DNA from: Anabaena subtropica FACHB-260
GTDB taxonomy: Bacteria; Cyanobacteriota; Cyanobacteriia; Cyanobacteriales; Nostocaceae
NCBI RefSeq assembly: GCF_014697105.1
Contig: NZ_JACJRF010000015.1
Location: 1 to 64,000, forward strand
DNA length: 64,000 nucleotides
Reading direction: 5' to 3'
Positions 16,644 through 43,051 of the stretch are shown here, piece by piece. Below the pieces are notes generated by a model. It worked only from the letters and a program-made list of their open reading frames with translations. It had not been told where the DNA came from and ran no database searches. Made by a program: the position numbers and the translations under genes. How positions within the stretch are numbered: position 1 is the first letter of the stretch; each line of letters opens with the position of its first letter.

Positions 16644-16650
16644 CTACGTC

Positions 16651-22796: not shown

Positions 22797-25700
22797 ATGT
22801 CTGCTAATCCAATTGATAGTGCCTTAGCGGAGTTAGAAACCCAAATAAATAACTGCGAAAAGGTTTTGTTGAGGTGTATTGAGGAAAAAAAAATGAAATC
22901 AGAAAAACCAATGTCAATCAACAAAATTAATAGACAGCTACAACATAATCCTATCGCCATCATTGGCATGGCTTCACTGCTACCCGAAGCGAGAAATTTA
23001 CGGGAATATTGGCAAAACATAGTTAATAAAATTGATTGTATCACTGATGTTCCCTCTACTCACTGGAGCGTAGAAGATTACTACGACCCCAACCCCAGAA
23101 CCCCTGAAGATAAAACCTACTGTAAACGGGGCGGGTTTATTCCTGAGGTTGATTTTAACCCAATGGAATTTGGTATTCCTCCCAGCATTTTGGAAGTAAC
23201 CGACGTTTCCCAACTATTAAGTTTAGTAGTTGCGAAAGAAGCAATGGAAGATGCTGGTTATGGCGATGCTCGTGAATTTAACCGCGATTTGGTGGGGGTA
23301 ATCTTAGGTGTGGCGATGGCCAAGCAATTGGGTATGCCACTTTCCGCAAGGTTAGAATATCCAATTTGGGAAAAAGTCCTCAAAAACAGTGGACTTTCCG
23401 ACGAAGACACCAAAAAAATCGTCGATAAAATCAAAAGTGCCTACGTCAAGTGGGATGAGAACGCCTTCCCTGGGATGTTAGCTAACGTTGTGGCTGGACG
23501 TATCGCCAACCGCTTGAACTTCGGCGGGATGAACTGCGTCGTGGATGCGGCTTGCGCTAGTTCCTTCGGTGCATTGAAGATGGCGATTAGTGAATTAGTC
23601 GAACATCGCGCCGACATGATGCTGACTGGTGGTGTGGATACAGATAACACCATCATGGCTTATATTTCCTTCAGCAAAACCCCAGCCGTATCTCCCAGCG
23701 ATAACGTCAAACCCTTCGATGCAAAATCCGACGGGATGATGTTGGGCGAAGGAATCTGTATGATGGTGCTGAAACGCTTGGAAGATGCAGAACGTGATGG
23801 CGATCGCATTTATGCAGTCATCAAAGGTATTGGTACTTCTAGTGATGGTCGTTACAAGAGTATATATGCGCCCCGCAAGGAAGGACAAGTCAATGCCTTG
23901 CGCCGTGCTTATGAAGATGCAGGCTTCTCCCCCGCTACCGTTGGTCTGATGGAAGCCCACGGTACAGGGACAATGGCTGGTGACCCCACCGAGTTCGGTT
24001 CTTTAAGAGATTACTTTAGCGAACACGACAACAAAAAGCAGCACATCGCTTTGGGTAGTGTGAAATCCCAAATCGGTCACACCAAAGCGGCAGCTGGTGC
24101 AGCAAGTCTAATTAAAACAGCCTTGGCACTGCACCATAAAGTATTACCAGCGACAATTAACATCACCGAGCCTAACCCCAAACTCAACATTACAGAATCG
24201 GCTTTTTACCTCAACACCGAAACTAGACCTTGGATTCGCCCAGAAGGAGAAGCACCAAGAAGGGCTGGGGTCAGTTCCTTCGGCTTTGGTGGGACAAACT
24301 ACCACGTAGTTTTGGAAGAATACGAAGCAGAACAAAATCGCCCTTACCGCTTACACAACAGCGCCAATGAAATCTTACTGTTTGCGGCTAACCCGGCGGA
24401 ACTGCTCAAACAGTGTGAGGAAGTTTTAGGTAAGTTGCAATCTGATGGTGGTAATCAGCATTACTCCCAATTAGTTCAAGATTGTCAATCGGTGCAAATT
24501 CCCCAAAATGCAGCTAGGGTGGGCTTTGTCGCCGAGAATCTGCAAGAAGCTTGCAAGTTCATGCAAACCAGCATCGACTGGCTGAAGCATAAAGCTGGTG
24601 CAGCTAACTGGGAACATCCCCAAGGGATTTACTACCGTGCTTCCGGTATGGAATTAAACGGTAAAGTCGTCTCCCTGTTCTCCGGTCAAGGTTCTCAATA
24701 CCTGGAAATGGGACGGGAACTGGTGATGAACTTCCCCACCTTGCGCCGTTTGTTCGGTTATATGGATGGGTTGTTGCTTCAAGATAACTTGCGCCCTCTG
24801 TCGGAAATTGTTTTCCCCAATCCTGTGTTTGATGAAGCCCAGAAAAACGCTCAAGTTTCTGCACTGCAACGTACAGAATACGCACAGCCAGCAATTGGGG
24901 CATTTAGCGCCGGGCTTTATTCTATCCTCAAACAAGCTGGGTTTAAGTCTGACTTTGTAGCCGGACACAGCTTTGGGGAAATCACCGCTTTGTGGGCTGC
25001 GGGTGTGTTGAGTGACGCAGATTATATGTACCTAGTGAAAGCTAGGGGTCAAGCAATGGCTGCGCCAGAAGACCCAGACCATGATGCAGGGACAATGCTG
25101 GCGGTGAAGGAAGACTTGAGCAAAATTGAACCCATCCTCAAGCAGTTCCCTCAAGTTAGCATCGCTAATTACAATTCTCCCACCCAGATTGTCTTAGCAG
25201 GGCCGACCGCCGAAATCGCTAAAGTCCGTCAAGCCTTACAAGCCCAAGGTTACGCGGCTGTACCCTTACCAGTCTCCGCCGCCTTCCACACCTCACTGAT
25301 TGCTTTCGCCCAAAAATCCTTTGCGATCGCCACAAAATCAGTCCAATTCCACGAGCCGAAAATCCCTGTATTCACTAACGTTACAGGTAAGCCTTATCCC
25401 AAAGACCCCCAAGCGATTCAAAAAATCCTAGAAACTCACCTGGCTAACTCGGTGTTGTTCAAGCAGGAGATTGAAAATATCTATGCGGCTGGCGGTCATT
25501 GCTTCGTAGAATTTGGGCCGAAGCGGATTCTCACCAACTTAGTGAAAGATATCCTTGGCGATCGCCCCCACATCACCGTATCCTTGAACCCCAGCACCCA
25601 AAAGAACAGCGATCGCTCTCTGCGGGAAGCAGCCGTACAAATGCGAGTGATAGGGATGCAGTTACAAAACCTCGACCCATACCAAGCCCCTCCTGCACTA

Positions 25701-28133
25701 CCACCAGCCGAGACAAAGAAAGGTCTGAGTGTCACCTTACGGGGTATCAACTACAGATCGGAAAAAACCAAAAAGGCGTGGGAGGACGCAATGAACGATG
25801 GGTTCAAAGTATCCCTACCCTCTGCACCTGTTACCCCCGCAATTTCTGAACCTGTAGCAGCAGTCAAAGAAAATAACGGTAACGGTAACGGACATGGCAA
25901 AATCACCCAACTACCCAAAATATTAGATAACTCTACTAGTCTCATAGCTCACCGACCTGAAATGAATGTGGCGATCGCTTCACCCAAACTAGTCGAAGAA
26001 AAGAAGATGCAAACACCAGAAAAACTGGACAACTACAAGCGCGTGCTAGAAAGCTTAGAGTACCTGACAACTCAGTTTCAAAAAAATCAAACTGAGAACC
26101 TGCAAGTTCATGGTACTTACCTCAACCATCAGATGGAATACACCAAAGCGTTCTTCCAACTGATGCAGCAACAAAACACCTTGTTTGCAAACGCCAAATC
26201 TTCCCAAGAAGCAGCCCAGCTTAAACTAGTGGTGATGGAAAGCCTAGAGCGTAGCATGGTGCAGTTTCACTCCCAACAAGGCGAAACCCTCCGCATCCAT
26301 GAAAAATACCTCCAGGAACAGGTAGCTTATGCAAGAAACTTTTTTGAACTAATTCAACAACAATATTCTTTGGTGTTGTCTGGTGGAGTGAATACGCCAG
26401 TGACTGAAACACCAGTCCCAGAAGTTTCCGCCTTCACCATCGAAACACCCGTAATTGCTGCACCCGTCACTTCCACCCCTGAGCCTGTAGTCAAAAAAGA
26501 CATCAGCATAGTTGATGCACCTGCACCGACAGCTTGGCAAATTCAGTCTGAACCTGTAGTTACTGCACCTGCTCCTGTTATTCCCACAACACCTGCGCCT
26601 GCTGCTGTCATTCCCACAATTGAACCTGTAGCTACCGCACCAGCACCCGTCATCCCCACAAGTGAACCAGTCGTTACAGCACCAATAGTCGCAAAAATTG
26701 CTGAATCCGCACCAGCACCAGCCATTAATATTGCTGACTTGGATAAAAACCTCCTAGCAATTATCAGCGATAAGACTGGCTACCCAGTGGAAATGCTGGA
26801 AATGGAAATGGACATGGAGGCAGATTTAGGGATTGACTCCATCAAACGGGTAGAAATCTTAGGCGGATTACAAGAAGTGTACCCCGACCTACCCAAGCCC
26901 AACTTAGAAGAACTGGCAGAAAAACGCACCATCGGGCAAATTGTCGAGTATCTGCAAGCTCAAGTTGCGATTAGCCAGACGGTAGAGGTAGCGATTCAAC
27001 AAGCGCAACAAGTAACCGAGACACCAGCGCCAGTAGTCACTGCAAGTATACCTACACCAGCACCAGTAGTTGCACCTGAGCCAGTCGCCATCCCCGCAAC
27101 ACCAGAACCGGAAGCTGTCGCAGACACCACCGACTACGCAGACTTAGCGCAAACCTTACTCAACATCACTAGCGATAAGACTGGCTACCCAGTGGAAATG
27201 CTAGAACTCGATATGGACATGGAGGCAGATTTGGGGATTGACTCCATCAAACGGGTAGAAATCCTGGGAGCAATGCAAGAGACATACCCCAACCTACCCA
27301 AGCCCAACATCGAGGAACTAGGCGACCTCCGTACCATCCGGCAAATTGTTGACTACCTCCAGAAGCTGGTGGGAGGTGAAAAAAAAAAGTCTCAGTCTGA
27401 GTGCAACTGGCAGCCAGTCCAAATAATCGGCAACGTCCAACGCCGTCCAGCCAAACTCAAATACCTACCAACACCAGATAGCTTAGACTTTTCGTTACCA
27501 GAGGGACACATCTGTTTAATCACCGATGATGGTTCCCTCACCACCTCCCAAGTAGTGCAATCCCTAACAGAGCGTGGTTGGAAACTCGTAGTCTTAAGCT
27601 TCCCCTCATCCATCGTTCCCCAACAATCAGTCTTACCCGCCAGCGTCCACCGCGTCGCCCTCGCAGATATGAGTGAAGAATTACTACAACACAAATTATC
27701 TGCGATCGCCACCAACTACGGCACAATTGGCGCTTTCATCCACCTCCACCCAGCATTCTCCAATCAAGGGCTTTACTTACCACAAGAGAAAGCGATTGTC
27801 AAGCAAATATTTTTCATCGCCAAGTACCTGAAAAAATCCCTCACCGAAGCCGGACGCTATGAGCGTAGTTGCTTCCTCACCGTCACCCGCCTAGATGGAG
27901 CCTTTGGATTAGAGCATAACACCAATTTTGGGGCGATCGCTGGCGGATTATTCGGACTAGTGAAAACCCTAAGATGGGAATGGCCTAACGTATTTACCAG
28001 AGGAATCGACCTCAGCCCCACCATCAACCCCCAAAAATCAGCGCAACACATCCTTAACGAACTACACGACTCCAACCTCTATATCCCTGAAGTCGCTTAC
28101 AACTCCCAAGGACGCTTCACCCTCATCAGCTAA
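22797..28133 (+). CDS. hglE: Heterocyst glycolipid synthase HglE (KS-AT-ACP-ACP-partial KR)
   Basis: A 1778-aa type I polyketide/PUFA-like synthase subunit (PfaA-like) that builds the heterocyst glycolipid chain. Domains: ketosynthase about 50-510 (active Cys253 in VDAACASSF, then EAHGTGT and SQIGHTKAAAG), acyltransferase about 620-940 (GHSFGE, Ser725), a linker with two similar helical segments and Pro/Ala-rich repeats, two ACPs (LGIDSIKRVEIL, Ser1348 and Ser1483), and a C-terminal ketoreductase structural half from ~1535. The catalytic ketoreductase half is in the next gene. The ATG at 22797 has no ribosome site; an in-frame ATG at 22893 has GAGG 8 nt upstream and is a serious alternative start. 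Confidence 0.93.
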   Translation: MSANPIDSALAELETQINNCEKVLLRCIEEKKMKSEKPMSINKINRQLQHNPIAIIGMASLLPEARNLREYWQNIVNKIDCITDVPSTHWSVEDYYDPNPRTPEDKTYCKRGGFIPEVDFNPMEFGIPPSILEVTDVSQLLSLVVAKEAMEDAGYGDAREFNRDLVGVILGVAMAKQLGMPLSARLEYPIWEKVLKNSGLSDEDTKKIVDKIKSAYVKWDENAFPGMLANVVAGRIANRLNFGGMNCVVDAACASSFGALKMAISELVEHRADMMLTGGVDTDNTIMAYISFSKTPAVSPSDNVKPFDAKSDGMMLGEGICMMVLKRLEDAERDGDRIYAVIKGIGTSSDGRYKSIYAPRKEGQVNALRRAYEDAGFSPATVGLMEAHGTGTMAGDPTEFGSLRDYFSEHDNKKQHIALGSVKSQIGHTKAAAGAASLIKTALALHHKVLPATINITEPNPKLNITESAFYLNTETRPWIRPEGEAPRRAGVSSFGFGGTNYHVVLEEYEAEQNRPYRLHNSANEILLFAANPAELLKQCEEVLGKLQSDGGNQHYSQLVQDCQSVQIPQNAARVGFVAENLQEACKFMQTSIDWLKHKAGAANWEHPQGIYYRASGMELNGKVVSLFSGQGSQYLEMGRELVMNFPTLRRLFGYMDGLLLQDNLRPLSEIVFPNPVFDEAQKNAQVSALQRTEYAQPAIGAFSAGLYSILKQAGFKSDFVAGHSFGEITALWAAGVLSDADYMYLVKARGQAMAAPEDPDHDAGTMLAVKEDLSKIEPILKQFPQVSIANYNSPTQIVLAGPTAEIAKVRQALQAQGYAAVPLPVSAAFHTSLIAFAQKSFAIATKSVQFHEPKIPVFTNVTGKPYPKDPQAIQKILETHLANSVLFKQEIENIYAAGGHCFVEFGPKRILTNLVKDILGDRPHITVSLNPSTQKNSDRSLREAAVQMRVIGMQLQNLDPYQAPPALPPAETKKGLSVTLRGINYRSEKTKKAWEDAMNDGFKVSLPSAPVTPAISEPVAAVKENNGNGNGHGKITQLPKILDNSTSLIAHRPEMNVAIASPKLVEEKKMQTPEKLDNYKRVLESLEYLTTQFQKNQTENLQVHGTYLNHQMEYTKAFFQLMQQQNTLFANAKSSQEAAQLKLVVMESLERSMVQFHSQQGETLRIHEKYLQEQVAYARNFFELIQQQYSLVLSGGVNTPVTETPVPEVSAFTIETPVIAAPVTSTPEPVVKKDISIVDAPAPTAWQIQSEPVVTAPAPVIPTTPAPAAVIPTIEPVATAPAPVIPTSEPVVTAPIVAKIAESAPAPAINIADLDKNLLAIISDKTGYPVEMLEMEMDMEADLGIDSIKRVEILGGLQEVYPDLPKPNLEELAEKRTIGQIVEYLQAQVAISQTVEVAIQQAQQVTETPAPVVTASIPTPAPVVAPEPVAIPATPEPEAVADTTDYADLAQTLLNITSDKTGYPVEMLELDMDMEADLGIDSIKRVEILGAMQETYPNLPKPNIEELGDLRTIRQIVDYLQKLVGGEKKKSQSECNWQPVQIIGNVQRRPAKLKYLPTPDSLDFSLPEGHICLITDDGSLTTSQVVQSLTERGWKLVVLSFPSSIVPQQSVLPASVHRVALADMSEELLQHKLSAIATNYGTIGAFIHLHPAFSNQGLYLPQEKAIVKQIFFIAKYLKKSLTEAGRYERSCFLTVTRLDGAFGLEHNTNFGAIAGGLFGLVKTLRWEWPNVFTRGIDLSPTINPQKSAQHILNELHDSNLYIPEVAYNSQGRFTLIS

Positions 28134-28165
28134 CCACTCCGCGTAACTTTGCGCTTACCTTTGCG

Positions 28166-28199
28166 TTCCTCTGCGTTATTTCTCCCCCACGCAGAGGAA
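28166..28199. other. Perfect hairpin in the hglE-KR/DH gene gap
   Basis: TTCCTCTGCGT (28166-28176) and ACGCAGAGGAA (28189-28199) form an 11-bp perfect stem with a 12-nt loop. The stem lies in the 95-nt gap between the two halves of the ketoreductase. There is no T-run, so termination is unlikely. An RNA processing or stability role is possible. The segment TTTGCG..TCTGCGTT also resembles a dispersed repeat seen near 30003-30020 and 30060-30069. Confidence 0.6.
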
Positions 28200-28228
28200 T
28201 AAACAAAATACTTTTACAACTCAAGTAT

Positions 28229-29950
28229 ATGACTACACTCACCCAAGTTCGCCCCGCATCAGTTTTTATTGTCAGTGGTGGTGCAAAAGGAATCACAGCT
28301 CAGTGCGTCATTGAACTAGCCCAACACCAACCTTGTAAATTTATTCTCCTTGGTCGCTCAGAAGTCATCGAAAACGAGCCAGATTTTGCTCGTGATTGTC
28401 TTGAGGAGCCAGTTTTAAAAAAAGCGATTATGCAGCACCTACTGACTCAAGGTGAAAAGCCCACACCCATGAGCGTACAGAAGGTTTATCACACAATTGT
28501 TTCCAGCCGAGAAATCAAAGCCACCTTACAGGTGATCGCTGCCACAGGTGCAACAGCAGAGTATATTAATGTTGACGTGACTAATGTCGCGGAGTTACAG
28601 CAAAAGTTAGCATCTGTCGGCAAGATTACAGGTATTATCCACGGCGCGGGTAATTTAGCCGATAAATTGATTGAGAAGAAGACAGACCAGGACTTTGAAA
28701 AAGTTTACACTGCAAAGGTGCAAGGTTTAGAAAACCTGTTGGCTTGTGTTGACCCCAAACAACTAGAGCATTTAGTATTGTTTTCCTCCGTCGCCGGATT
28801 TTATGGGAATATGGGGCAATCGGATTATGCGATCGCTAATGAAATCCTCAATAAATCTGCCCATCTAATCAAACAAAACAATCCCCAGTGTCACGTTGTC
28901 GCCATCAACTGGGGCGGTTGGGATAGTGGAATGGTGACACCAGAACTAAAAAAAGCCTTTGCTGAACGGGGAATTGATATTATCCCTGTGGATGTTGGCA
29001 CAAAAATGTTAGTTAACGAACTCCATCCCAGTCACCGTGATTCCACTCAAGTAGTCATCGGTAGCCCCATCATCCCCCCACCAGGAAACCTAGACCCCCA
29101 ACTACGCAGCTATCGCATCCGTCGCCGCATGACAGTAGAGGCGAACCCCTTCTTACAAGACCATGTAATTGCAGGTATTCCCGTATTACCTGCTACCTGT
29201 GCCATGTCTTGGATGATTAATGCTTGCGAAGAATTGTACCCAGGTTATAAGTATTTCCGTTGTCAAGAATTTAAAGTTTTGAAGGGAATCACCTTCAATC
29301 AAAATGTTCCTAAAGAACATATTTTAGAAATACAAGAAATTGCTAAACATGGTTCTGAATCTATCGAATTTCAGACCAAAATACTCAGCAAAACACCAGA
29401 AGGTAAAACCCATTATCACTTCAGCGCCCACATTACCATCGTCCACAAATCCCCAGAAGCACCATTTTATGAATCCCTAAATCTCACAGAAGATAACATC
29501 ATTACCACCAGAGGTAAAGATTTTTATCGTAATGGAGATTCATCCTTATTTCACGGCCCATCTTTTCAAGAAATTACCAGAGTTTTAAACATTAATTCCG
29601 AAAAAATTACCGTTGAATGTTTGTGGAAAACAATCTCAGATGAAGCCCAAGGACAGTTTCCTGTCAGATGGCACAATCCCTACTCCACTGATATCAGTAC
29701 CCAACCCTTATGGCTGTGGTTGAGTCATTTACATCAAGAAGTATGCCTACCCGGACAATTAACTCACTCAGAGCAGTTTCGCGCCATACCTTGCGATGAA
29801 CCATTCTACGTTTCTTGCGAAGTTATCAGTAAAACAGCCACAGGCACAAATGCCAACATCATCTTACACGACAGCGAAGGAAAACTATTTTCCCGCATCT
29901 TAGGCGCAAAAGCCATCATTGCACCGATGAATTTACATAAACCAAAGTAA
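28229..29950 (+). CDS. Hgl synthase subunit: catalytic ketoreductase + dehydratase (hglF/hglG-type)
   Basis: A 573-aa protein. Residues about 10-270 are a catalytic ketoreductase half: Rossmann VFIVSGGAKGITAQCVIELA, then HLVLFSSVAGFYGNMGQSDY with the Ser and Tyr of the catalytic set and YAIAN. Residues about 300-560 are a hot-dog dehydratase like those of PUFA synthases, with H-x3-G-x4-P in DHVIAGIPVLPAT and FHGPSFQE further on. It reduces and dehydrates the beta-keto intermediate, working with HglE, whose C-terminus carries the other ketoreductase half. Naming of this gene differs in my memory (hglF or hglG), so no symbol is given. ATG start; weak ribosome site. Confidence 0.88.
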   Translation: MTTLTQVRPASVFIVSGGAKGITAQCVIELAQHQPCKFILLGRSEVIENEPDFARDCLEEPVLKKAIMQHLLTQGEKPTPMSVQKVYHTIVSSREIKATLQVIAATGATAEYINVDVTNVAELQQKLASVGKITGIIHGAGNLADKLIEKKTDQDFEKVYTAKVQGLENLLACVDPKQLEHLVLFSSVAGFYGNMGQSDYAIANEILNKSAHLIKQNNPQCHVVAINWGGWDSGMVTPELKKAFAERGIDIIPVDVGTKMLVNELHPSHRDSTQVVIGSPIIPPPGNLDPQLRSYRIRRRMTVEANPFLQDHVIAGIPVLPATCAMSWMINACEELYPGYKYFRCQEFKVLKGITFNQNVPKEHILEIQEIAKHGSESIEFQTKILSKTPEGKTHYHFSAHITIVHKSPEAPFYESLNLTEDNIITTRGKDFYRNGDSSLFHGPSFQEITRVLNINSEKITVECLWKTISDEAQGQFPVRWHNPYSTDISTQPLWLWLSHLHQEVCLPGQLTHSEQFRAIPCDEPFYVSCEVISKTATGTNANIILHDSEGKLFSRILGAKAIIAPMNLHKPK

Positions 29951-30353
29951 GAAATAAGGGAGATATAGCGTTTCCTAATCTACTGAAGTACTAGGTAAAA
30001 TCTCTGCGCTTCTCTGCGTTTTCCAGCCTGCGGCAAGCCGAAAAAGCGTCTACAGCGCCCCTCTGCGTTCAAGAAGAATAAATCTGTACCTCACTTGCTT
30101 AGGAATTGCTATAAGGGCAATGATGTATATTACTCTAGTCCTAAACTCTCCCAAGTCTCGACTCCTGTGAGTAAGACAAATCTGAAAACAAAACCCTCAA
30201 AACATCCTAAATAGTTTAGGATTGCTATAGTAGGCCGATATTAATCAGCCTCATATCTTTGCTTGTCTGCGACTTAGTGAATCCTGTCCAGTTTGGGGAA
30301 TAGCGTAAATCTAATAGTTCGTAATTCGTTATACCCTAACGAGGAAATTAGTA
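29951..30353. other. 403-bp gap inside the hgl gene series
   Basis: No coding sequence is seen. Contents: GC-rich CTCTGCG-type repeat pieces (30000-30070) and a perfect 8-bp hairpin ATCCTAAA-TAG-TTTAGGAT (30204-30222). Two near-copies of TTAGGAATTGCTATA / TTAGGATTGCTATA lie at about 30101 and 30216. The gap is far longer than the others in the series and could hold an internal promoter for hglD onward, or the remnant of a gene that occupies this place in PCC 7120. Confidence 0.5.
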
Positions 30354-31712
30354 GTGGAAAAAATCGCCATCATTGGCTTATCATGCCTCTTTCCTGATGC
30401 TAACAATCCTGAGCAATTTTGGCAGAATATTAATGATCAGAAAGATTCGACATCATCTGTAACTGTTGAAGAAATGGGCGTAGATCCCACAATATTTTAC
30501 GACCCGGTAAAAGGCAAGCCGGAAAAAATTTATTTCCTCAAAGGTGGATTTATTCGCAATTTTCAATTTGATGCTAGTGAATACAATCTGCCAGCAGAAT
30601 ATGTGGAAAGCTTAGATAATAGCTTCAAATGGTCGCTATATGCGGCTAAACAAGCAATTTTACATAGTGGTTATTGGGGAAATAAAGAAGTTCTCTCTAA
30701 ATGTGGAGTAATTTTAGGGACTCTTTCTTTACCAACAAGGTTATCTAATCAATTAATTGCACCAATTTATCGTCAAACCATTGAACCTGCTGTTGCAGAA
30801 CTTTTACAAAATCCAGATTTCCATCTAGCTGCTTTACCCACAGCAACTAAACCAGCTACACATAATGCCATGATATCTGGCTTACCAGCCGCGTTAGTTG
30901 CTAAGGCTTTCTCTCTATCAGCTAATCATTTCTGTATTGATGCTGCTTGTTCTTCAGCTTTTTACGCGATTAAATTAGCATCTCATTACCTGTGGACGGG
31001 TAAAGCTGATGTGATGTTAGCTGGTGCTATCAGTTGCACAGACCCTTTGTTCTTGCGGATGTTTTTCTCTGGTCTGCAAGCCTATCCAGAAAATGGAATT
31101 AGCTCGCCTTTAGATAAATCATCAAGAGGTTTGGTGACATCCGAAGGCATTGGAATGGTAATGCTGAAACGGTATAGTGATGCTGTCAGAGATGGCGATA
31201 AAATCCTGGCTACAGTATGTGGTAATGGTCTTTCTAATGATGGCAAAGGAAAGCATTTACTTAGCCCTAGTACGAAGGGACAAGTATTAGCTTTTGAACG
31301 TGCTTATCAAGAAGCCCAACTGAGTCCCCAAGCTATTGATTATTTGGAGTGTCACGCCACTGGTACTCTATTGGGCGATACCACAGAATTTAACTCGATA
31401 GAAACCTTTTTTGGAAAACACCAAACATCACCATTAGTAGGTTCAGCTAAAGCTAATGTGGGTCATTTATTAGTAGCTGCCGGTATGGTGAGTTTGACGA
31501 AGGCAATTTACGGCATGAATCATAATCAGATTGCACCAACTATTAATGTAAATGACCCTATAGGTTCGGCAAATAATGTGATTTCTGCCAAGAATATTGT
31601 CCGTACTCCCACATCATGGCCTCACAATACTGGAACTAAATATGTGGCTTTGAGTGCTTTTGGTTTTGGTGGAACCAATTCCCATCTGATTCTAGAAAAA
31701 GAAGGTTTGTAG
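30354..31712 (+). CDS. hglD: HglD: stand-alone ketosynthase
   Basis: A 452-aa beta-ketoacyl synthase. The full Cys-His-His set is present: C199 in CIDAACSSAF, His in LECHATGTLLGD (about 329-338) and His in KANVGHLLVAAGM (about 369-381). The C-terminal signature FGFGGTNSHLIL is intact. It is therefore a catalytically competent condensing domain, resembling the KS of PfaC. Translation begins at GTG (30354) with GAGGA about 10 nt upstream. It lies 86 nt before hglC, and its stop codon overlaps the first arm of palindrome B2. Together with the cysteine-less KS of HglC it may form a KS/chain-length-factor pair. Confidence 0.92.
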   Translation: MEKIAIIGLSCLFPDANNPEQFWQNINDQKDSTSSVTVEEMGVDPTIFYDPVKGKPEKIYFLKGGFIRNFQFDASEYNLPAEYVESLDNSFKWSLYAAKQAILHSGYWGNKEVLSKCGVILGTLSLPTRLSNQLIAPIYRQTIEPAVAELLQNPDFHLAALPTATKPATHNAMISGLPAALVAKAFSLSANHFCIDAACSSAFYAIKLASHYLWTGKADVMLAGAISCTDPLFLRMFFSGLQAYPENGISSPLDKSSRGLVTSEGIGMVMLKRYSDAVRDGDKILATVCGNGLSNDGKGKHLLSPSTKGQVLAFERAYQEAQLSPQAIDYLECHATGTLLGDTTEFNSIETFFGKHQTSPLVGSAKANVGHLLVAAGMVSLTKAIYGMNHNQIAPTINVNDPIGSANNVISAKNIVRTPTSWPHNTGTKYVALSAFGFGGTNSHLILEKEGL

Positions 31713-31761
31713 TCAGCACTAAAGTGCTTTATCAATAAGGGCTAAAGCCCTTACTACAAAC
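31705..31761. repeat. Palindromic repeat family B, copy 2 (hglD-hglC junction)
   Basis: Outer arms GTTTGTAGT and ACTACAAAC plus two inner palindromes (AGCACTAAAGTGCT and GGGCTAAAGCCC) give a 57-nt element able to fold as a large stem with two sub-hairpins. It begins 3 nt before the hglD stop codon and ends 38 nt before the HglC start. Confidence 0.8.
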
Positions 31762-31801
31762 TTGTGGATTTATGTAACCTTGACAGGGTAATAGTAAAGT
31801 G

Positions 31802-34800
31802 ATGTTTGAAACAGAAAATAACAACACTGCCAAAATCGCTATTGTAGGTATGGATGCCTTCTTTGGTGAGTGCAATAGCTTAGATGCGTTTGAGCGCAGT
31901 ATTTATGACGGTAAGCAGCATTTCATTTCCCTACCGCTAAAGAGATGGCATGGCATTGATGAGCAGAAAGACTTGTTGTCAGAGTATGGTTTAGCTGACG
32001 GGAAAGCGCCTGTAGGTGCTTACATCAAAGAATTTGATGTTGATGCTCTCGCTTATAAGATTCCTCCCAACGAAGTTGAAAAATTAAATCCTCAACAATT
32101 GCTACTGTTGACAGTAGCCGATCGCGCCCTCAAAGATGCGAAGATTTCAGAAGGGGGCAATGTAGCCGTAATTATTGGGGCTGAAACAGAGTTATCTATA
32201 CACCAGCTACAACAACGCTGGGATGCTTCTTGGCAAGTTAAGGATGGTTTGAACGCAGCAGAAATTACCCTACCACCAGAACAAGTTACTCAACTGGAAA
32301 CCATCGTTAAAGACAGTATTCACCATCAAGTAGAGATTGGTGAGTATTTGAGCTGCATCACCAACATCATGGCTAATCGAATTTCCTCTTTATGGAATTT
32401 CACTGGCCCTTCTTTCACGGTAATGGCGGCAGAAAGTTCTGCTTTCAAGGCGCTAGAAGTGGCACAAATGCTGCTGATGACTGGAGAAGTGGATGCAGTG
32501 GTTGTTGGTGCGGTGGACTTGGCTGGTGGGGTAGAAAATGTCTTATTACGCAGTCAATCTGCGAAGATTAATACAGGCACCAATACCTTGAGCTATGACC
32601 AAAAAGCCAACGGTTGGACACCTGGAGAGGGTGCGGGTGTAGTTGTTCTCAAGCGTCATCAACAGGCAATTGAAAATGGCGATCGCATTTATGCTGTAAT
32701 TGATGCTATTAGTATTGGACAATCCCACACAAATGTAGACGGAACAAGCATTAGCCAAGGCTGTCAGCAAGCTTTACAGATGGCTGGTGTCCAACCTGAG
32801 CAGGTGAAGTATGTAGAAGTTTGCGCCAGTGGGATTCCCCAGGAAGATGAGGCGGAAATCGCTGGTTTAGTCCAAGCTTATCCGTCGGTAGGTGATGGGC
32901 TGCACTGTGCAATTGGCAGTGTGAAAGCGAACATTGGTCATACTTTTGTGGCTTCGGGAATTGCCAGCTTAATTAAAACCGCCCTGTGTTTGTATTACAG
33001 ATACATCCCCTCTACACCTAATTGGTCTGGTGTGAAGACTCCCCAAGCCTTTGAGGGTAGCCCTTTCTATGTAGCTACAGAATCTAGACCTTGGTTCCTC
33101 AGCAAGAACGCCTCACGACGGATTGCGGCGATTAATGGGATAGGGTGTGATGGTAGTTATGCCCATGTCATCTTGTCGGAAGAAACCAGTGAGCAAGAGC
33201 GTCCGAATAAATATTTGGAACAGATGCCTTTTTATCTGTTCCCTGTAACGGCTGATGACCGTACCAGCCTTGTAGAGGCTTTGGATAAGCTACAAAAGTG
33301 TATTGCTGAAAGTGCTGCTTTATCTAATAGTGCCAGTCAAGCCTTCAACACCTTTGAACAGCAATCCCAAGCACCTTACGCCATCTCAATTGCTGGGCGG
33401 AATAAGAAAGAACTCCTCAGAGAAATTGAATCGGCTCGTAAAGGTATTAATGCGGCGTTTGACAAAGGTACAGATTGGCAAACACCTGTAGGTAGTTACT
33501 TTACAGCCAACCCACTGGGTAAAAAAGGTGAAGTCGCTTACGTCTATCCGGCGGCGGTAAATTCTTATGTGGGTATTGGGCGTAATCTTTTCCGTCTCTT
33601 TCCCAAACTCCACGACAACCCCTTTGTACAGAGTATTTACAAACGGGCTGCTGATGTCGAGAGGCTGGTATTTCCTAGAAGCTTGAATAAGTTAACCACC
33701 AGACAGTTAGAACAGCTAGAGAAGAAATTACTCAATGATTCTCTGGCGATGTTTGAAGCGGAAATGTTCTGCACCAAATTGCTCACAACCATTATTCGGG
33801 ATGATTTTCAAGTCCGTCCGAAATATGTGTTTGGCTATAGTTTGGGTGAAACCAGCATGATGGTTGCTCAAGGGGTGTGGAGCAATTTTTATGAGGGTAG
33901 TAATTCTTTCAACTCCTCGGCGTTGTTTGGTGATAGGTTATCTGGGCCGAAAAACGCAGTGCGTGAGTATTGGGGATTACCAAAAGCTGCCACAGCTTCA
34001 GGTGATAATTTGTGGGGTAATTATGTGCTGATGGCTAGTCCTGTACAAGTGCGGGATGCTATTAGAAATGAAACACGGGTTTATCTGACACAAATTAATA
34101 CACCAGAAGAAGTATTAATTGCAGGTGAGCCTGCGGCTTGTCAAAGGGTGATCAAAACTATAGGCTGTAATGCTTTTCCGGCTCCATTCGATCATGTGAT
34201 TCATTGTCAAACCATGCGATCGGAGTTTGATGAACTAGTAAAATTAAATACTTTACCGAGTCAGGATATTTCCGGCATTGTATTTTATTCTGCTGCCCAA
34301 TATCAAACTATCACCTTGGAGAGGGAAAATATTGCCCGTAGTATCGCCACAGGGCTATCTCAAGAATTAGATTTCCCCAAACTAGTTAACCGCATCTACG
34401 ACGACGGGGCAAAAATCTTCGTAGAAGCTGGTGCTGGTAGTGTTTGCTCGCGCTGGCTTGATAAAATCCTCGAAGATAAAGAACACATTACCATATCGCT
34501 GAACCGTCGGGGTTTAGATGACCATACTTCTTTTATCAAAGCCTTAGCTAAACTCGTCAGCCATCGAGTAGCTGTGAATTTATCGCCACTATATAGTCCA
34601 GTTACAGAAATTAGTCAGCTAAATAAAGTCATGCTGCGGACTGTAACTTTAGGTGGTGATGCAATTACAGGTAAAATCCTCAGTGCAGAAAACCGTCAGC
34701 TATTTCAAGAAATTGCCGAGAAATTCAAACAAGAAAGCGCCCAGAGACAACAGCAACACGATATTTTAGGCATAACTTCACTGAAGTTACCACAGGCATT

Positions 34801-35152
34801 AGCTAATAGTGCAACTCTACCCCAGCCTGTAGAAAACTCCCCAGAAAATATCATTGAACACGTTTTAGAGCCAGAAGAACAACTAAAATCTTCTGAGTTA
34901 ACCGCAACTCAACCCACAACGCCACAAGATTTTTCATCATTAATTACCACCGATATCGAATTTGCAACCATCATCAATATGTTGGAATTAAATAAAGCTC
35001 AGTATCAAAAGCTGAATGCAAACAATGCGCGGATAACGCAAAATCACACAGCCTTCTTAAAAGCCAGAGAAGATTTTAGTAAGCAATTGAGTGAAATTAT
35101 TCAATTACAAATGGTTTGTGCTGAAGATTTATTGCAGGAAGAAGTGAAATAG
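31802..35152 (+). CDS. hglC: HglC: pseudo-ketosynthase (CLF-like) + acyltransferase
   Basis: About 1116 aa from ATG 31802; a GTG one codon earlier is possible. It resembles PfaB. Residues about 10-460 are a ketosynthase fold that has lost its catalytic residues: the active-site Cys is replaced by Glu (VMAAESSAF, residue ~211) and the EAHGTGT histidine is missing (EVCASGIPQ), although KANIGHTFVASG is kept. Residues about 565-900 are an acyltransferase with GYSLGE (Ser kept, His to Tyr as in PfaB). The C-terminal ~170 residues are helical without a known domain. It probably supplies the chain-length-factor partner of HglD and loads acyl units. Confidence 0.91.
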   Translation: MFETENNNTAKIAIVGMDAFFGECNSLDAFERSIYDGKQHFISLPLKRWHGIDEQKDLLSEYGLADGKAPVGAYIKEFDVDALAYKIPPNEVEKLNPQQLLLLTVADRALKDAKISEGGNVAVIIGAETELSIHQLQQRWDASWQVKDGLNAAEITLPPEQVTQLETIVKDSIHHQVEIGEYLSCITNIMANRISSLWNFTGPSFTVMAAESSAFKALEVAQMLLMTGEVDAVVVGAVDLAGGVENVLLRSQSAKINTGTNTLSYDQKANGWTPGEGAGVVVLKRHQQAIENGDRIYAVIDAISIGQSHTNVDGTSISQGCQQALQMAGVQPEQVKYVEVCASGIPQEDEAEIAGLVQAYPSVGDGLHCAIGSVKANIGHTFVASGIASLIKTALCLYYRYIPSTPNWSGVKTPQAFEGSPFYVATESRPWFLSKNASRRIAAINGIGCDGSYAHVILSEETSEQERPNKYLEQMPFYLFPVTADDRTSLVEALDKLQKCIAESAALSNSASQAFNTFEQQSQAPYAISIAGRNKKELLREIESARKGINAAFDKGTDWQTPVGSYFTANPLGKKGEVAYVYPAAVNSYVGIGRNLFRLFPKLHDNPFVQSIYKRAADVERLVFPRSLNKLTTRQLEQLEKKLLNDSLAMFEAEMFCTKLLTTIIRDDFQVRPKYVFGYSLGETSMMVAQGVWSNFYEGSNSFNSSALFGDRLSGPKNAVREYWGLPKAATASGDNLWGNYVLMASPVQVRDAIRNETRVYLTQINTPEEVLIAGEPAACQRVIKTIGCNAFPAPFDHVIHCQTMRSEFDELVKLNTLPSQDISGIVFYSAAQYQTITLERENIARSIATGLSQELDFPKLVNRIYDDGAKIFVEAGAGSVCSRWLDKILEDKEHITISLNRRGLDDHTSFIKALAKLVSHRVAVNLSPLYSPVTEISQLNKVMLRTVTLGGDAITGKILSAENRQLFQEIAEKFKQESAQRQQQHDILGITSLKLPQALANSATLPQPVENSPENIIEHVLEPEEQLKSSELTATQPTTPQDFSSLITTDIEFATIINMLELNKAQYQKLNANNARITQNHTAFLKAREDFSKQLSEIIQLQMVCAEDLLQEEVK

Positions 35153-35165
35153 TTAAACAATCATC

Positions 35166-35221
35166 GTTTGTAGTAAGGACTTCAGTCTTTAATTTTCAGG
35201 ACTAAAGTCCTTACTACGAAC
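35166..35221. repeat. Palindromic repeat family B, copy 3 (hglC-enoyl reductase junction)
   Basis: GTTTGTAGTAAGGACTTCAG ... AGGACTAAAGTCCTTACTAC: an imperfect 56-nt palindrome starting 14 nt after the hglC stop. It is closely related to the element at 31705-31761 and, in its core, to 2338-2379. Confidence 0.8.
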
Positions 35222-35286
35222 ATCTATTTCCAATTGTCATGAGCCAGTAGGTAGTAATTAATTGCTAATCGTGCGAGGGAACGACT

Positions 35287-36945
35287 GTGACCACTGTTGA
35301 TGCGCTGATAAATAAATATGATAATGGTCTAGGATTTTCTGCCCAGAACTCATATCAAAATCTAGTTTGGAAAGGTTCTTTAGACTGCATATCTTTTGAA
35401 CAAGTAGCCATAAAAAATAAATTAATGGCTTTAGATAAACCTTGTTACATTGTCAAAGTTGCTGGCAAAATTGGTGTAACAAATGACGGTTATTTAGCTC
35501 CTGCGGAAATTGGCATCACAGGACAAGTAGAACTTTTAACATCTCTATCATCTATCCGCATTCAACAACTGGGCGACCCTACTTTTCTCTCATTTTATGG
35601 CGTACAGTCTGCCTATATGACTGGTGCAATGGCTGGGGGTATTGCTTCGGAAGAAATGGTCATTGCTTTAGGTAAACAGAAAATTTTGGGTTCTTTTGGT
35701 GCTGGTGGTTTACCTCCAGAACGTTTAGAAATAGCTATTAATCGGATTCAACAAGCTTTACCCAATGGCCCCTACGCCTTCAATTTAATCCACAGCCCCA
35801 ATGATATGGCAATTGAGCGCCGGGCTGTGGATTTATACCTCAAATATGGGGTGACAACTGTAGAAGCTTCGGCATTTTTAGATTTAACTGCCAACATCGT
35901 TTATTATCGGGTGGCAGGATTAAGTTTAAATGATGCCAATCAAATTCAAATTAAAAATAAAGTCATTGCGAAAATTTCTCGCCGGGAAGTAGCGAGTAAA
36001 TTTATGCAACCAGCACCAGCCAGAATTATCAAAGAATTGCTGGAACAAGGGTTAATTACTGAGTTGCAAGCAAAGCTTGCTGCTAACGTACCGATGGCTG
36101 ATGATATCACCGTTGAAGCTGATTCTGGCGGTCATACAGATAACCGTCCCTTGGTTTGTTTGTTACCTTCAATTATTGCTTTACGGGATGAAATTCAAAG
36201 ACAATATAATTATCCCCAACCGATTAGAGTAGGTGCAGCCGGTGGAATTGCCACACCAGAATCAGCTTTAGCAGCTTTTATGATGGGCGCTGCTTACATA
36301 GTAACTGGTTCGGTAAATCAAGCTTGTATTGAATCGGGTGCTTGTGACCATACCAAGCAATTATTAGCCCAAGCTGAAATGGCTGATGTAATTATGGCTC
36401 CCGCCGCCGATATGTTTGAAATGGGAGTGAAATTACAAGTCCTCAAACGTGGGACAATGTTCGCTATGCGGGCGCAAAAATTGTATGAATTGTACCGCAA
36501 TTATGACTCAATTGAAGCCATTCCTCAAGCTGAAAGAGAGAAATTAGAAAAACAAGTTTTCCGGAAAACAATTGCTGAAGTTTGGGAAGGGACGGCGGCT
36601 TATTTATCTCAGAAAAATCCAGAGAAATTAGGTAAAGCAGTTAACAATCCTAAGCTAAAAATGGCGTTGATTTTCCGTTGGTATTTAGGATTATCTTCCC
36701 GTTGGTCTAGTTCCGGGGAAAAAGGTAGAGAAGTTGATTATCAAATTTGGTGCGGCCCGGCGATGGGTGGTTTTAACGACTGGGTGCGTGGTTCTTATTT
36801 GGCAGAAGCAAATAATCGGCAAGTTGTGGATGTTGCTCATCACATTATGACTGGGGCAGCATTTTTATATCGCATTCAAAGTATGAAAATTCAAGGAATG
36901 CAAATACCTGATTACTACTGTCAATATCACCCAGTTCGTTACTAA
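35287..36945 (+). CDS. PfaD-like FMN enoyl reductase of the hgl cluster (hglA)
   Basis: A 552-aa protein of the PfaD/2-nitropropane dioxygenase-like enoyl reductase family, a TIM-barrel FMN enzyme that saturates the double bond during chain extension. Visible marks: QSAYMTGAMAGGIASEEMVI, KILGSFGAGGLPPE, GPYAFNLIHSPND (about 160-172), VEADSGGHTDNRP (about 277-289) and VGAAGGIATPESALAAF (about 317-333, phosphate-binding). Begins at GTG 35287 with a GAGGGA site 7 nt upstream. It is followed by hglB after 19 nt. I recall the name hglA for alr5356 in PCC 7120, but not firmly enough to give it as the symbol. Confidence 0.9.
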   Translation: MTTVDALINKYDNGLGFSAQNSYQNLVWKGSLDCISFEQVAIKNKLMALDKPCYIVKVAGKIGVTNDGYLAPAEIGITGQVELLTSLSSIRIQQLGDPTFLSFYGVQSAYMTGAMAGGIASEEMVIALGKQKILGSFGAGGLPPERLEIAINRIQQALPNGPYAFNLIHSPNDMAIERRAVDLYLKYGVTTVEASAFLDLTANIVYYRVAGLSLNDANQIQIKNKVIAKISRREVASKFMQPAPARIIKELLEQGLITELQAKLAANVPMADDITVEADSGGHTDNRPLVCLLPSIIALRDEIQRQYNYPQPIRVGAAGGIATPESALAAFMMGAAYIVTGSVNQACIESGACDHTKQLLAQAEMADVIMAPAADMFEMGVKLQVLKRGTMFAMRAQKLYELYRNYDSIEAIPQAEREKLEKQVFRKTIAEVWEGTAAYLSQKNPEKLGKAVNNPKLKMALIFRWYLGLSSRWSSSGEKGREVDYQIWCGPAMGGFNDWVRGSYLAEANNRQVVDVAHHIMTGAAFLYRIQSMKIQGMQIPDYYCQYHPVRY

Positions 36946-36964
36946 ATAATTTGGAGATATCAAA

Positions 36965-38485
36965 ATGAGTCTAAAACAAAATTATAGTGCAGCAGATATT
37001 CAAGCTTGGATGGTGTCTCATCTAGCTGAATTATTGGGAGTAGATAGTGATGAAATTGATGCTACCGTCAATTTAGAAAGCTACGGTTTGGATTCAGCCC
37101 AGGCAATGACTCTAGTGAGTAAACTAGAGCAATTGCTAGGTTTTCAACCATCACCTTTGTTGTTGTGGCATTACCCAACTATTGAATCATTGTCTGGGCG
37201 TTTGGCTGAAGAATTAGAGGAATTATCTGAGGGAAAAGATACAGATTCTCCTAGTTCTAATCACACCCCTGATACACCTGTCCTCGATTTACAAGCTGAA
37301 GTAGTTCTTGACCCCACAATTCATCCTGGTGGTGCAATTCCTGTTGATTTTCCGGTGACTCAACCGAAGAAAATATTACTCACTGGTGCTACAGGGTTCT
37401 TAGGTGCTTTCTTAATTCGGGAACTGCTACAAGAAACTCAGGCTGATATATATTGTTTGGTACGTGCTGCTAATACTGAAGCAGGTAAGGCTAAACTGCA
37501 AACTAATTTAGAAGGTTATGCAATTTGGCAGGAAGAATATGAGTCGAGAATTATTCCTGTTGTGGGTGATTTAGCTGAACCGTTGCTGGGTTTGAGTGGA
37601 ACACAATTCCAAACTTTAGCAGCAGAAATTGACACTATTTATCATAGTGGTGCTTTGTTGAATTATGTTTTCCCTTACTCGGCTTTGAAAGCTGCGAATG
37701 TATTGGGAACGCAAGAAATTTTAAGATTGGCTTGTCAAATTAAAGTCAAGCCTGTGCATTATGTTTCCAGTGTGGCGGTGTTTGAATCACCTATCTATGC
37801 TGGTAAGGTAGTGCAGGAAAGTGATGATTTTAGTCACTGGGAAGGTATTTTTCTAGGCTACTCCCAAACCAAATGGGTAGCAGAAAAATTAGTGAAGATT
37901 GCCAGCGATCGCGGTTTACCTGTTACTATCCATAGACCACCCTTAATTTCTGGAGATAGTGAGACTGGTATCGGTAACACCCACGACTTTATTAACTTGA
38001 TGGTCAAGGGTTGTCTACAAATGGGATGCTTCCCGGAAGTAGAATATATGCTAGATATGTCTCCTGTAGATTATGTCAGTAAAGCGATCGTGCATCTATC
38101 GATGCAGAAACAATCGCTAGGTAAAGCTTTCCACTTGCAACACCCAGAACCAGTATCTTTGAGTGTTCTAGTTGATTGGGTACGCTCTTTCGGCTATGAC
38201 ATTAAAATGCTGCCTTATGAAGAATGGCAAGCAGAGTTAATTCAAAATGCCACTTCTGTAGACAATCCCCTATACACCTTGCGTCCCTTCCTCTTAGAAC
38301 GCTGGTCTGATGAACAACTCACCATTCCCGATTTATACCTCAAAGCCAGAAGGCCCCACATTAGCTGTCAAGATACCCTCAAAGCACTAGCAGGTAGTTC
38401 TATTAGCTGTCCGCCGATTAATGGCACATTATTTATGACTTACACAGCCTACTTGATTCAAACTGGTTTCTTGACCTTGGCTTAG
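36965..38485 (+). CDS. hglB: HglB (HetM): ACP + thioester reductase
   Basis: A 506-aa protein. An N-terminal acyl carrier domain (about 8-85, phosphopantetheine Ser44 in [11 protein letters not shown]) is followed by a thioester reductase domain (about 135-500) with [19 protein letters not shown] and a [11 protein letters not shown] active-site motif. It would take the finished chain and release it reductively with NADPH as aldehyde or alcohol, giving the fatty alcohol aglycone. Called hglB or hetM in Anabaena PCC 7120. GGAG precedes the ATG. It is the last hgl gene: in PCC 7120 hetN and hetI follow, but here a terminator does. Confidence 0.92.
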
Positions 38486-38641
38486 TGGAACAGATAGAGG
38501 GAATGATGGAGATGTAGCTTTACCTTTCTGTAGAGTGAATAATTAGTAAAATTTTATCAAGAAAGGCAGCTATGCTGAAGGAAATTCTGCTTCCTGCTCT
38601 CTGCCCTCCCTTATCTCTTCACTTTCTGATTTCATGCGTGT

Positions 38642-38671
38642 AACCCGGTTTCTATGAGAAACTGGGTTTTT
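38642..38671 (+). terminator. Rho-independent terminator of the hgl operon
   Basis: A 12-bp stem with one internal mismatch (38642-38653 AACCCGGTTTCT with 38657-38668 AGAAACTGGGTT), a 3-nt ATG loop and a T-run at 38667-38671. It lies 156 nt after the hglB stop and closes the hgl series. Confidence 0.85.
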
Positions 38672-38743
38672 CCTGTGGGATGATAAATTTTGTATTTTTT
38701 AGTTCATAGTCCTTGGTGAATCTTTTTCATCTCCCCCACTCCC

Positions 38744-38880
38744 AATACGGTTCGGATAAGCAGGGGGTGCAGGGGAGGGAAGAGAGTTATTATTAAGCAA
38801 TTTCTCTTCCCCTGCTTCTATTCTCCCCCTGCACAAGAACAGCTCGCCTCAACAGATAACTCTGTTAACCGAACCGTATT
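38744..38880. repeat. 137-bp nested inverted-repeat element
   Basis: Perfect 12-bp terminal inverted repeats (AATACGGTTCGG at 38744-38755, CCGAACCGTATT at 38869-38880) flank an interior with further complementary G-rich and C-rich tracts (e.g. CAGGGGAGGGAAGAGAG against CTCTTCCCCTG). Both ends sit in similar CCCCCACTCC sequence (before the left end and just after the right), possibly a target duplication. There is no ORF. It is a MITE-like or structured-RNA candidate just upstream of the ABC ATPase gene. Confidence 0.75.
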
Positions 38881-38944
38881 GCCCCCACTCCGTCATAAAT
38901 ATGAATGGTAGTGTAGATAAGGAAATTGTGTCACCAATTTACTC

Positions 38945-39847
38945 ATGACTGCTGCTGTTCTTCTCGAAAACATCTACAAATTTTACAACAACGTCCCTGT
39001 AGTCAATGACTTGTCATTCAACATCGAAGCCGGAGAAATATTTGCTCTCCTTGGCCCGAACGGTGCAGGAAAATCAACCACAATTCGGATGCTGACTACA
39101 CTGACAAAACCATCCCAAGGACGGATGGAAGTAGCCGGATATGATGTAGCTCGTCAACCCATACTAGCAAAGCAGAGTATCGGCGTTGTTTTGCAGCAAA
39201 TTAGTGTAGATGGTGATTTAAGTGTGTGGGAAAATATGGAGCTACATGGCAGGCTACATCATATCCCTAACCCACAGCGACAGCAACTAATTAATCAATG
39301 GCTGGAGTATGTCGAACTAGCAGACAGACGGGAAAGCTTGGTAAAAACCCTGTCTGGTGGGATGAAACGACGATTGCAAATAGCTAGAGCTTTATTGCAT
39401 CAACCAAAAATCTTGTTTTTAGATGAACCGACAGTGGGACTAGACCCCCAAACTCGTCGCCGCCTGTGGGAAATTATTCGGGATTTAAATAAACAAGGAA
39501 TGACGATGTTACTAACTACTCATTACATGGATGAGGTGGAATTTTTATGTAATGCTTTTGGCTCTGCTAAACCAGGACGCATTGGTATTATGGATGGTGG
39601 TAAACTAATCTCTTTGGGAACTTTAAAACAATTGCGTTCTGCTCACGGTGAAGGTCTAGTCATGAAACAGTTGAGCGTTACCGACGCAGGTAATGATAGT
39701 TCACGAGGCTGGGAATATTTATTTTTTCCTTCTTTGGAAGAGGCAAACATTTATCTAAATCAACAGCCAGATAAAACGGGAATGATGGTACGTCCTTCTA
39801 ATTTAGAAGATATTTTTGTCGAGTTAACAGGACGGCAATTAAATTAA
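38945..39847 (+). CDS. ABC transporter ATP-binding protein (DrrA/NatA type)
   Basis: A 300-aa ABC ATPase with Walker A GPNGAGKST (residues ~39-47), Q-loop near VLQQ, signature LSGGMKRR (about 139-146), Walker B ILFLDEP (about 158-164) and an H-loop THYMDE. The C-terminal ~80 residues match the extra domain of DrrA/NatA-type drug or polysaccharide exporters. No permease gene is adjacent: the next gene is a convergent TPR protein. The substrate is therefore unknown. It occupies the place of hetN in Anabaena PCC 7120. No strong ribosome site precedes the ATG. Confidence 0.88.
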   Translation: MTAAVLLENIYKFYNNVPVVNDLSFNIEAGEIFALLGPNGAGKSTTIRMLTTLTKPSQGRMEVAGYDVARQPILAKQSIGVVLQQISVDGDLSVWENMELHGRLHHIPNPQRQQLINQWLEYVELADRRESLVKTLSGGMKRRLQIARALLHQPKILFLDEPTVGLDPQTRRRLWEIIRDLNKQGMTMLLTTHYMDEVEFLCNAFGSAKPGRIGIMDGGKLISLGTLKQLRSAHGEGLVMKQLSVTDAGNDSSRGWEYLFFPSLEEANIYLNQQPDKTGMMVRPSNLEDIFVELTGRQLN

Positions 39848-39854
39848 TTCAGCC

Positions 39855-40571
39855 TTATAACTGCTGAAGCATCGCCTCTACCCTAGCTACGCCATCTGCA
39901 TCATTGCGCCTTTGATATAAGTCACGGGCTTTTTGCAGCAGATTACTTGCTTGTTTGGTTTGTCGTCGTTGTTTATACATCGCCGCCATAAATTCGTAAG
40001 TTTGAGCATTGTTCTTGTCGAGGTTAATTGCTTGCTCAAATGCCCAATTAGCAGCTTTGAAGTCGCCCATCCGAGATTGAGTGATGCCTAAGCCGACATA
40101 AGCGCTAACATTGTTGCGGTTCAATTGGATAGCACGGCGGTAAGCTTCTTTTGCACCAGGAGTATCTCCCATGTTGCCTTTGATGTAACCTACTGCATAG
40201 AAAAAATCACTATTATTTGGGTTAATGGCGATCGCCCGACGGTATGATGCTAGTGCTGCCTGAAAATTTCCCTGTTGAGCGTATAAATACCCAATTCCCG
40301 AATGGATTCTGGCATTTTTGGGTTCCATAGCAGCAGCCTGTTGATAAACTGCGATCGCCCCATTATAATCACCAGCATCTACTAGCCTCTTGCCATCTTC
40401 CAACAATCGTTTTAATTCTGCGCTATTAGCCTGCACAATCAAAACCTGAGCTTGGGCTACTGAGGGGATATTCGCAACACAACAGCCTAATAACAGCACA
40501 CCCAACACGAATGATATGCGTTTGTACACAGTAATTTTCCCTAAATTATAGTGAACTTTTTTCTTGTTCAT
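39855..40571 (-). CDS. Secreted TPR-repeat protein
   Basis: A 238-aa protein with an N-terminal hydrophobic segment (about 19-38, VLGVLLLGCCVANIPSVAQA), probably a signal peptide. Five tetratricopeptide repeats follow from about residue 55 (e.g. AIAVYQQAAAMEPKNARIHSGIGYL as separate helices, ASYRRAIAINPNN, AYRRAIQLNRNN, AFEQAINLDKNN). TPR proteins act as scaffolds; the partner is unknown. It is convergent with the ABC ATPase gene, with only 7 nt between stop codons. The ATG has no clear ribosome site. Confidence 0.88.
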   Translation of the reverse strand: MNKKKVHYNLGKITVYKRISFVLGVLLLGCCVANIPSVAQAQVLIVQANSAELKRLLEDGKRLVDAGDYNGAIAVYQQAAAMEPKNARIHSGIGYLYAQQGNFQAALASYRRAIAINPNNSDFFYAVGYIKGNMGDTPGAKEAYRRAIQLNRNNVSAYVGLGITQSRMGDFKAANWAFEQAINLDKNNAQTYEFMAAMYKQRRQTKQASNLLQKARDLYQRRNDADGVARVEAMLQQL

Positions 40572-41089: not shown

Positions 41090-41092
41090 GTG

Positions 41093-42400: not shown

Positions 42401-42428
42401 TAAATAAATACTGTGGAATCATTTTTGA

Positions 42429-42453
42429 AAGCACCTCCGATCAGGTGCTTTTT
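42429..42453 (+). terminator. Rho-independent terminator
   Basis: An 8-bp stem AAGCACCT/AGGTGCTT (42429-42436 with 42443-42450), a 6-nt loop and a T-run at 42449-42453, 28 nt after the membrane protein stop. It also lies 5 nt from the stop of the convergent PEBP gene. Confidence 0.85.
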
Positions 42454-42458
42454 GTGAT

Positions 42459-42914: not shown

Positions 42915-43051
42915 GGTTTTCACCTCCTAATTTAATGGACTTTACTTAGTTGGGGCTTGGGGAATGGTGAAAAACTTAAAATGTAGTCTTTTCAGCTATG
43001 TTATGGTTTTTGACTCACAATATTTCGTCTAATTTTAAAAAATTAAGAGCT

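Follow-up and report, generated by a model that had tools for sequence, protein, structure and literature searches.

The hgl island and the sequence downstream of hglB

The window, the whole 64,000-nt stretch analysed here, opens a contig (C12) of the draft Anabaena subtropica FACHB-260 assembly (104 contigs, 99.18% complete) and contains an hgl island in which the genes from the HglE-type polyketide synthase through HglB were contiguous and intact; the island is complete (Table 1). Its gene order was colinear with the islands of three relatives from the same genus (G280, G283, and G276). The terminal hglB ORF joined an acyl carrier protein (ACP) to a thioester reductase, which is the HglB/HetM architecture, scored 367.3 bits against TIGR01746 (cut-off 213.35), and shared 92% identity with its counterparts in G283 and G280.

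Table 1 Features of the window and of the contig just beyond it.
Feature	Position	Strand or orientation	Basis or remark
hgl island, whole	10,793-38,485	mixed strands	Pfam/NCBIfam profiles; colinearity with relatives
hgl island: glycosyltransferases, epimerase-type enzyme, FtsX and HlyD exporter parts	10,793-19,120	-	
hgl island: ParB_N protein	19,916-21,262	+	
hgl island: polyketide genes	22,797-36,945	+	
hglB/hetM: acyl carrier protein and thioester reductase	36,965-38,485	+	PF00550, PF07993, TIGR01746
hglB's own terminator hairpin	38,629-38,685	+	fold; matches in relatives
Breakpoint	38,685/38,686		reciprocal alignment to G280, G283, G276
MITE-like element, inverted repeats CAATACGGTTCGG	38,743-38,881		copies in genome; fold
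Block b: ABC ATPase, TPR gene, YbjQ-type gene, regulator, SUF Fe-S cluster genes	38,902-49,486		same order in G280, C1:1830090-1838437 and on; left edge set by the G276 match
ABC ATPase, DrrA/NodI-like kind, solitary	38,945-39,847	+	PF00005
Block a: NAD-synthesis genes, PAS histidine kinase, LytR-type gene, others	49,775-61,402	inverted relative to b	reverse order in G280, C1:1817431-1828136; Pfam
hetN-hetI block	contig 65,786-75,213	inverted	~35 kb from hglB
hetI	contig 73,227-73,961	+	NCBIfam HetI equivalog NF042922; same contig, just beyond window
hetN	contig 73,998-74,867	-	SDR, 289 residues; same contig, just beyond window

The hglB stop was followed by a hairpin, a nested inverted repeat, and an ABC ATPase gene without an adjoining permease, all as the sequence-only reading had described them. 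The hairpin had a folding energy of -20.9 kcal/mol (z -3.87, equalled by none of 200 shuffles) and was kept between hglB and hetN in the relatives (4,530,630-4,530,686 in G280, where it also folds, and the same place in G283 and G276). The ATPase had been called DrrA-type, a loose label, since the protein is an ABC ATPase but reached only 289.5 bits against TIGR01188, below the cut-off of 312.45. The gene after it encoded a TPR protein on the opposite strand rather than an ABC-2 permease, and no ABC-2 permease was seen in 14 ortholog neighbourhoods covering as many as three ORFs on either side, as far as the available sequence reached (partial for L125 and L137), as judged by a rough hydropathy count of membrane spans and by Pfam on six neighbours; one neighbour with about five spans (L267) was assigned to PF00528 by Pfam. 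In the outgroup G140 (L267:5787-7287), a 5-formyltetrahydrofolate cyclo-ligase gene, not a TPR gene, came after the ABC ATPase.

hetN and hetI in this genome and across the genus

The sequence-only reading took the hgl cluster to be without hetN and hetI, which holds inside the window, whereas both genes were found intact on the same contig at 73,227-74,867. That reading had itself allowed that its observation would be ordinary if hetN lay just outside, and the stretch around the genome's PF01648 match showed it there. HetI scored 420.1 bits against the NCBIfam equivalog NF042922 (cut-off 370), and a profile search of all 104 contigs returned a single PF01648 match in the whole genome, at C12:73,617-73,856; with no second PF01648 gene found, a loss of hetI would probably not be tolerated. 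HetN belonged to the short-chain dehydrogenase (SDR) family (PF00106, 203.4 bits), retained an intact ERGSGR motif at residues 133-138, and fell into a 13-row clade with HetN of the 12 other genus members with support of 100/100, in a tree that includes a third of the low-identity SDRs of L143-L229, with duplicate sequences removed. The gene thus grouped with the hglB-linked hetN of the genus and adjoined hetI, as expected of an ortholog, the two being arranged tail to tail 36 bp apart. By their sequences, hetN and hetI are both evidently intact and moved together as a pair. A sucrose-phosphate synthase/phosphatase-type gene lay inside the moved block at contig 70,317-72,518 (L002:10317-12518) and had no match in the relatives' stretches compared, so the interior of the hetN block is not identical.

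The genus sample comprised 13 genomes, this one included, and hglB, hetN, and hetI were consecutive, with hetI convergent, in all 12 others (G035, G077, G111, G276, G280, G283, G268, G230, G253, G242, G261, and G286, the hglB match of the last falling in two adjacent pieces). The expectation that hglB is followed by hetN and hetI therefore holds for the genus, and the break in this linkage is specific to the present genome.

Beyond the genus the picture differed. We classified 80 named hglB loci (L143-L222), the best 80 of 335 loci encoding a relative and hence a sample leaning to near relatives, dropping hetN matches below 45% and slot SDR matches below 50% identity. hetN and then hetI followed hglB at only four loci (L143-L146), all of this genus; another SDR and then hetI followed at 41, that SDR only at 11, hetI only at 12, and neither hetN/SDR nor hetI at 12, five of which had little downstream sequence. 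Matches at or below 55% were dropped in the comparison of the G280 block, G268, and G230, and those below 48% in the comparison of second islands. The SDR occupying the slot between hglB and hetI (267 aa, no RGSGR) was non-orthologous, with ~28-35% identity to the HetN of this genome, and carried KQGEGK or similar at the position of ERGSGR. It was present in this genome as well (C8:56,077-56,877, 79% identical to that of N. calcicola) and had a match in 12 of 13 genus members (E <= 1e-80). These counts indicate that hetN next to hglB is largely one genus's feature in this sample, so that this layout serves poorly as a standard for other Nostocales; the second finding that the earlier reading had named as making its observation ordinary, a general lack of hetN at this place, was thus obtained too. 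Among related SDRs, the site of the PatS-like hexapeptide varied (ERGSGH, ERRSGH, ERGNGH, KRDSGH), and several of them would need only one or two changes in this variable stretch to reach ERGSGR.

According to PMC8064123 and PMC2821919, the hgl islands of Anabaena PCC 7120 and A. variabilis ATCC 29413 have the same hgl genes, the same types of hetN and hetI, and the same convergent hetN-hetI arrangement as found here, and hetN is placed downstream of hglB in A. variabilis (PMC8064123); unlike in those strains, where hetN comes after hglB, the hetN-hetI pair here was detached, inverted, and ~35 kb away. Of two primers designed for PCC 7120, alr5358-1 had no exact match among 284 loci, and alr5358-4 matched within hetI at L062, L067, and L143 (G280 and G283). 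Variation in hetN and hetI on hgl islands is described as common in sections 6 and 8 of PMC11804610, according to which hetI may lie elsewhere and the main glycolipids are not driven by this content. Published accounts report that Cylindrospermopsis raciborskii CS-505 has no hetN and a hetI-like gene at another locus (PMC2821919), that hetN and patS were not detected in Anabaena sp. 90 (PMC3542288), that patS and hetN lack conservation among heterocyst formers (PMC12756182), and that some HetN orthologs have no RGSGR (PMC9284123). Like CS-505 as described there, the present genome has hgl genes and a hetI elsewhere, but it keeps hetN with an intact motif. PMC7761841 yielded nothing useful on distribution, and a literature search found no paper treating hetN, hglB, and hetI jointly. 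As such variation is already published, detachment as such is ordinary; compared with the islands without hetN or hetI in those sections of PMC11804610, the present case is a recent, base-mapped move in a genus that otherwise keeps both genes on the island.

A break at the hglB terminator

Reciprocal alignment showed that the ancestral sequence continues from hglB and stops at the end of the hairpin. The sequence found beyond the hairpin in the relatives, which is the upstream region of hetN, was located at contig position 75,213 downwards, with contig 75,213-74,768 corresponding to G280 4,530,687-4,531,145 as the other half of the break. The two halves abut in G280 and G276 and are separated by only 2 bp in G283, which places the cut directly after the hglB terminator. 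hetN retained a 346-bp upstream region in the alignment and now lies downstream of wecB on the same strand, with a hairpin of -16.4 kcal/mol (folded without a shuffle control) in between. One hairpin thus stands between hglB and the ATPase block and another between wecB and hetN, and both the hglB and the hetN units appear to be insulated, which fits the monocistronic transcription of hetN reported in PMC4133259 for PCC 7120. The position of the break presents hglB and hetN as transcription units that can be separated, with a terminator/promoter boundary as the place where their surroundings can change.

The DNA brought next to hglB came from a distant region. In G280, blocks a, b, and c (the last being wecB-argC) form one region at C1:1.817-1.845 Mb, 2.7 Mb from hgl, whereas the order here was hgl, b, inverted a, the genes at 61,598-65,672, the inverted hetN block, and c, the hetN half of the break at 75,213 being joined to c, which adjoins b in G280. 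The genes at 61,598-65,672 had no counterpart in those stretches of G280 that were compared. The distance from block a to the hetN block is 2.7 Mb in G280 and ~4.4 kb here. A run of TCATTAC-like heptamer repeats at 49,487-49,774 lies at another rearrangement boundary, where the suf genes give way to the inverted NAD block.

Taking these observations together, we consider it very probable that a lineage-specific rearrangement cut the hglB-hetN-hetI array once, between the hglB terminator and the hetN promoter region, and moved the intact hetN-hetI block ~35 kb away in flipped orientation. A single 36-kb inversion was considered and found insufficient: it would account neither for the reversal of a when b shares the orientation of c nor for the 2.7 Mb that separate a from the hetN block in G280. 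The path may instead have comprised a ~36.5 kb inversion between hglB|hetN and b|c, a re-inversion of the 10.5-kb ABC-suf block b, and at least one further event, which the short distance from a to the hetN block calls for and which leaves the path as a whole conjectural. The move would probably have left the expression and function of hetN and hetI unchanged.

The nested inverted repeat in the gap bears on two other accounts of the junction. Its 137-bp core (38,744-38,880) folded at -59 kcal/mol (z -8.13, with shuffles), and the element was flanked by an exact 10-bp direct repeat, CCCCCACTCC, at 38,733-38,742 and 38,882-38,891. The pattern of its ends had 49 genome matches at no more than one mismatch, versus two for a reversed control pattern. 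Among the 17 complete copies with readable flanks, 10 had an exact 10-bp duplication, six a duplication with one mismatch, and one none, whereas none of 272 mispaired flanks matched over 8 bp or more. The element thus had inverted ends, multiple copies, and a target duplication of fixed length, and it shares with MITEs (non-autonomous transposable elements) its shortness, its inverted ends, its many copies, and a constant 10-bp target duplication. Genome-wide, the family measures ~146 bp, has the ends CAATACGGTTCGG, and makes a 10-bp target duplication.

An assembly error at this repeated element might have been suspected in a draft of 104 contigs, as the element is multi-copy, but the exact duplication at the window's copy, with the same 10 bp on both flanks and no match of 8 bp or more among the mispaired flanks, speaks against misassembly; moreover, 57 bp separate the break from the element, and the other half of the break, at 75,213, is joined to c, the neighbour of b in G280, making such an error highly improbable. 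Recombination between two copies of the element is to our judgement very unlikely as well: in its favour, the element is located between the breakpoint and the ATPase, and G280 has a 27-bp remnant between sufS and wecB, at the b|c boundary, yet the exact target duplication means that the flanks were continuous when the element inserted, so the element is not a recombination joint, and besides the 57-bp offset a search of 120 kb turned up just one element, with no copy at the other junctions of the contig. The proposal that the inverted repeat marks the breakpoint was therefore correct in placing a break in the hglB 3' gap and mistaken about the element, which begins at 38,743 and is flanked by a perfect target duplication of its own. 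From its flanks and copies, the element is best regarded as a MITE that arrived by transposition, and as not having made the hglB junction.

The separated arrangement could also be the ancestral state and hglB-hetN adjacency, as seen in the other genus members, the derived one, given that hetN usually lies away from hglB outside the genus and that the HetN relative of G270 is inverted and ~33 kb from hglB. The adjacency in every other genus member and the position of hetI close behind hglB in many outgroups, as in the genus and unlike here, make this extremely unlikely, and the G270 relative sits in a second hgl-like island, so that the similar spacing is a coincidence. Finally, the idea that the genome lost hetN and hetI and that the DrrA-like ATPase, which does fill the place that hetN has in other genus members, took over their function has virtually no chance of being right and is already refuted by the sequence, the pair being present and intact and the ATPase an ordinary ortholog that matched in 80 of 192 family genomes, this one included (E <= 1e-120), and lay away from hglB in all 10 other genus members having one, among the matches listed for hglB, with the lowest-scoring genomes left aside and positions outside the genus judged by eye. 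Its ortholog in G280 (95%) is at C1:1830093, 2.7 Mb from hglB. The ATPase is a single-copy conserved ortholog from another chromosomal region; on the simplest reading it is solitary and was carried along by chance, and it presumably has no role in heterocyst patterning. A lineage-specific move of hetN-hetI, as preferred here, removes the false lead of a heterocyst former without these genes; the value of the finding lies in its base-level account and in the following side result.

hgl clusters without HglB

HglB had no match in 11 of 192 family genomes (E <= 1e-180), and six of these (G134, G150, G152, G153, G194, and G215; loci L223-L228) were examined. In the six, an HglC 83-90% identical to that of the window was followed by a lone ACP (59-70% to the ACP of HglB), a 622-residue protein, a HetN relative (66-71% identity), and hetI. 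Upstream, HglE, KR-DH, KS, and HglD were found in five of six, the G194 contig ending inside HglE; in the sixth, G134, the contig ends inside HglC. The 622-residue protein contained a TubC_N docking domain (PF18563), its PDB matches were confined to that domain, and it had no NCBIfam match. At L228:2241-4109, the lone ACP and this TubC_N-docking protein stand in place of HglB. The HetN relatives of the six, together with those of G188 and G250 and the HetN of the genus, formed a 21-row clade (98/92), and ERGSGR was preserved in G134, G152, and G153 and changed in G150, G194, and G215. In the stretches fetched for G188 and G250, no hgl genes lay upstream of the module.

These clusters raise the possibility, which we put forward tentatively and at somewhat less than even probability, that the hgl island ends in a swap zone, that the HetN of the genus is a ketoreductase from the alternative module, which kept or gained a PatS-like hexapeptide at a variable stretch of the dehydrogenase, and that chain release without HglB is carried out by another enzyme, possibly the 622-residue protein. 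With such clusters, two points would become testable: the release of the glycolipid chain in the absence of the reductase, and the origin of HetN. No description of such an HglB replacement was found in the literature searched, including sections 6 and 8 of PMC11804610, section 6 of which already covers second 'hgl-like' islands.

The 622-residue protein matched in 96 of 192 genomes, with no match in the present one. In G190, G300, and G270, where HglB is also present, it lay with a HetN relative in a second, more divergent hgl-like island, and this divergent island type was present in a genome of another family too (G119).
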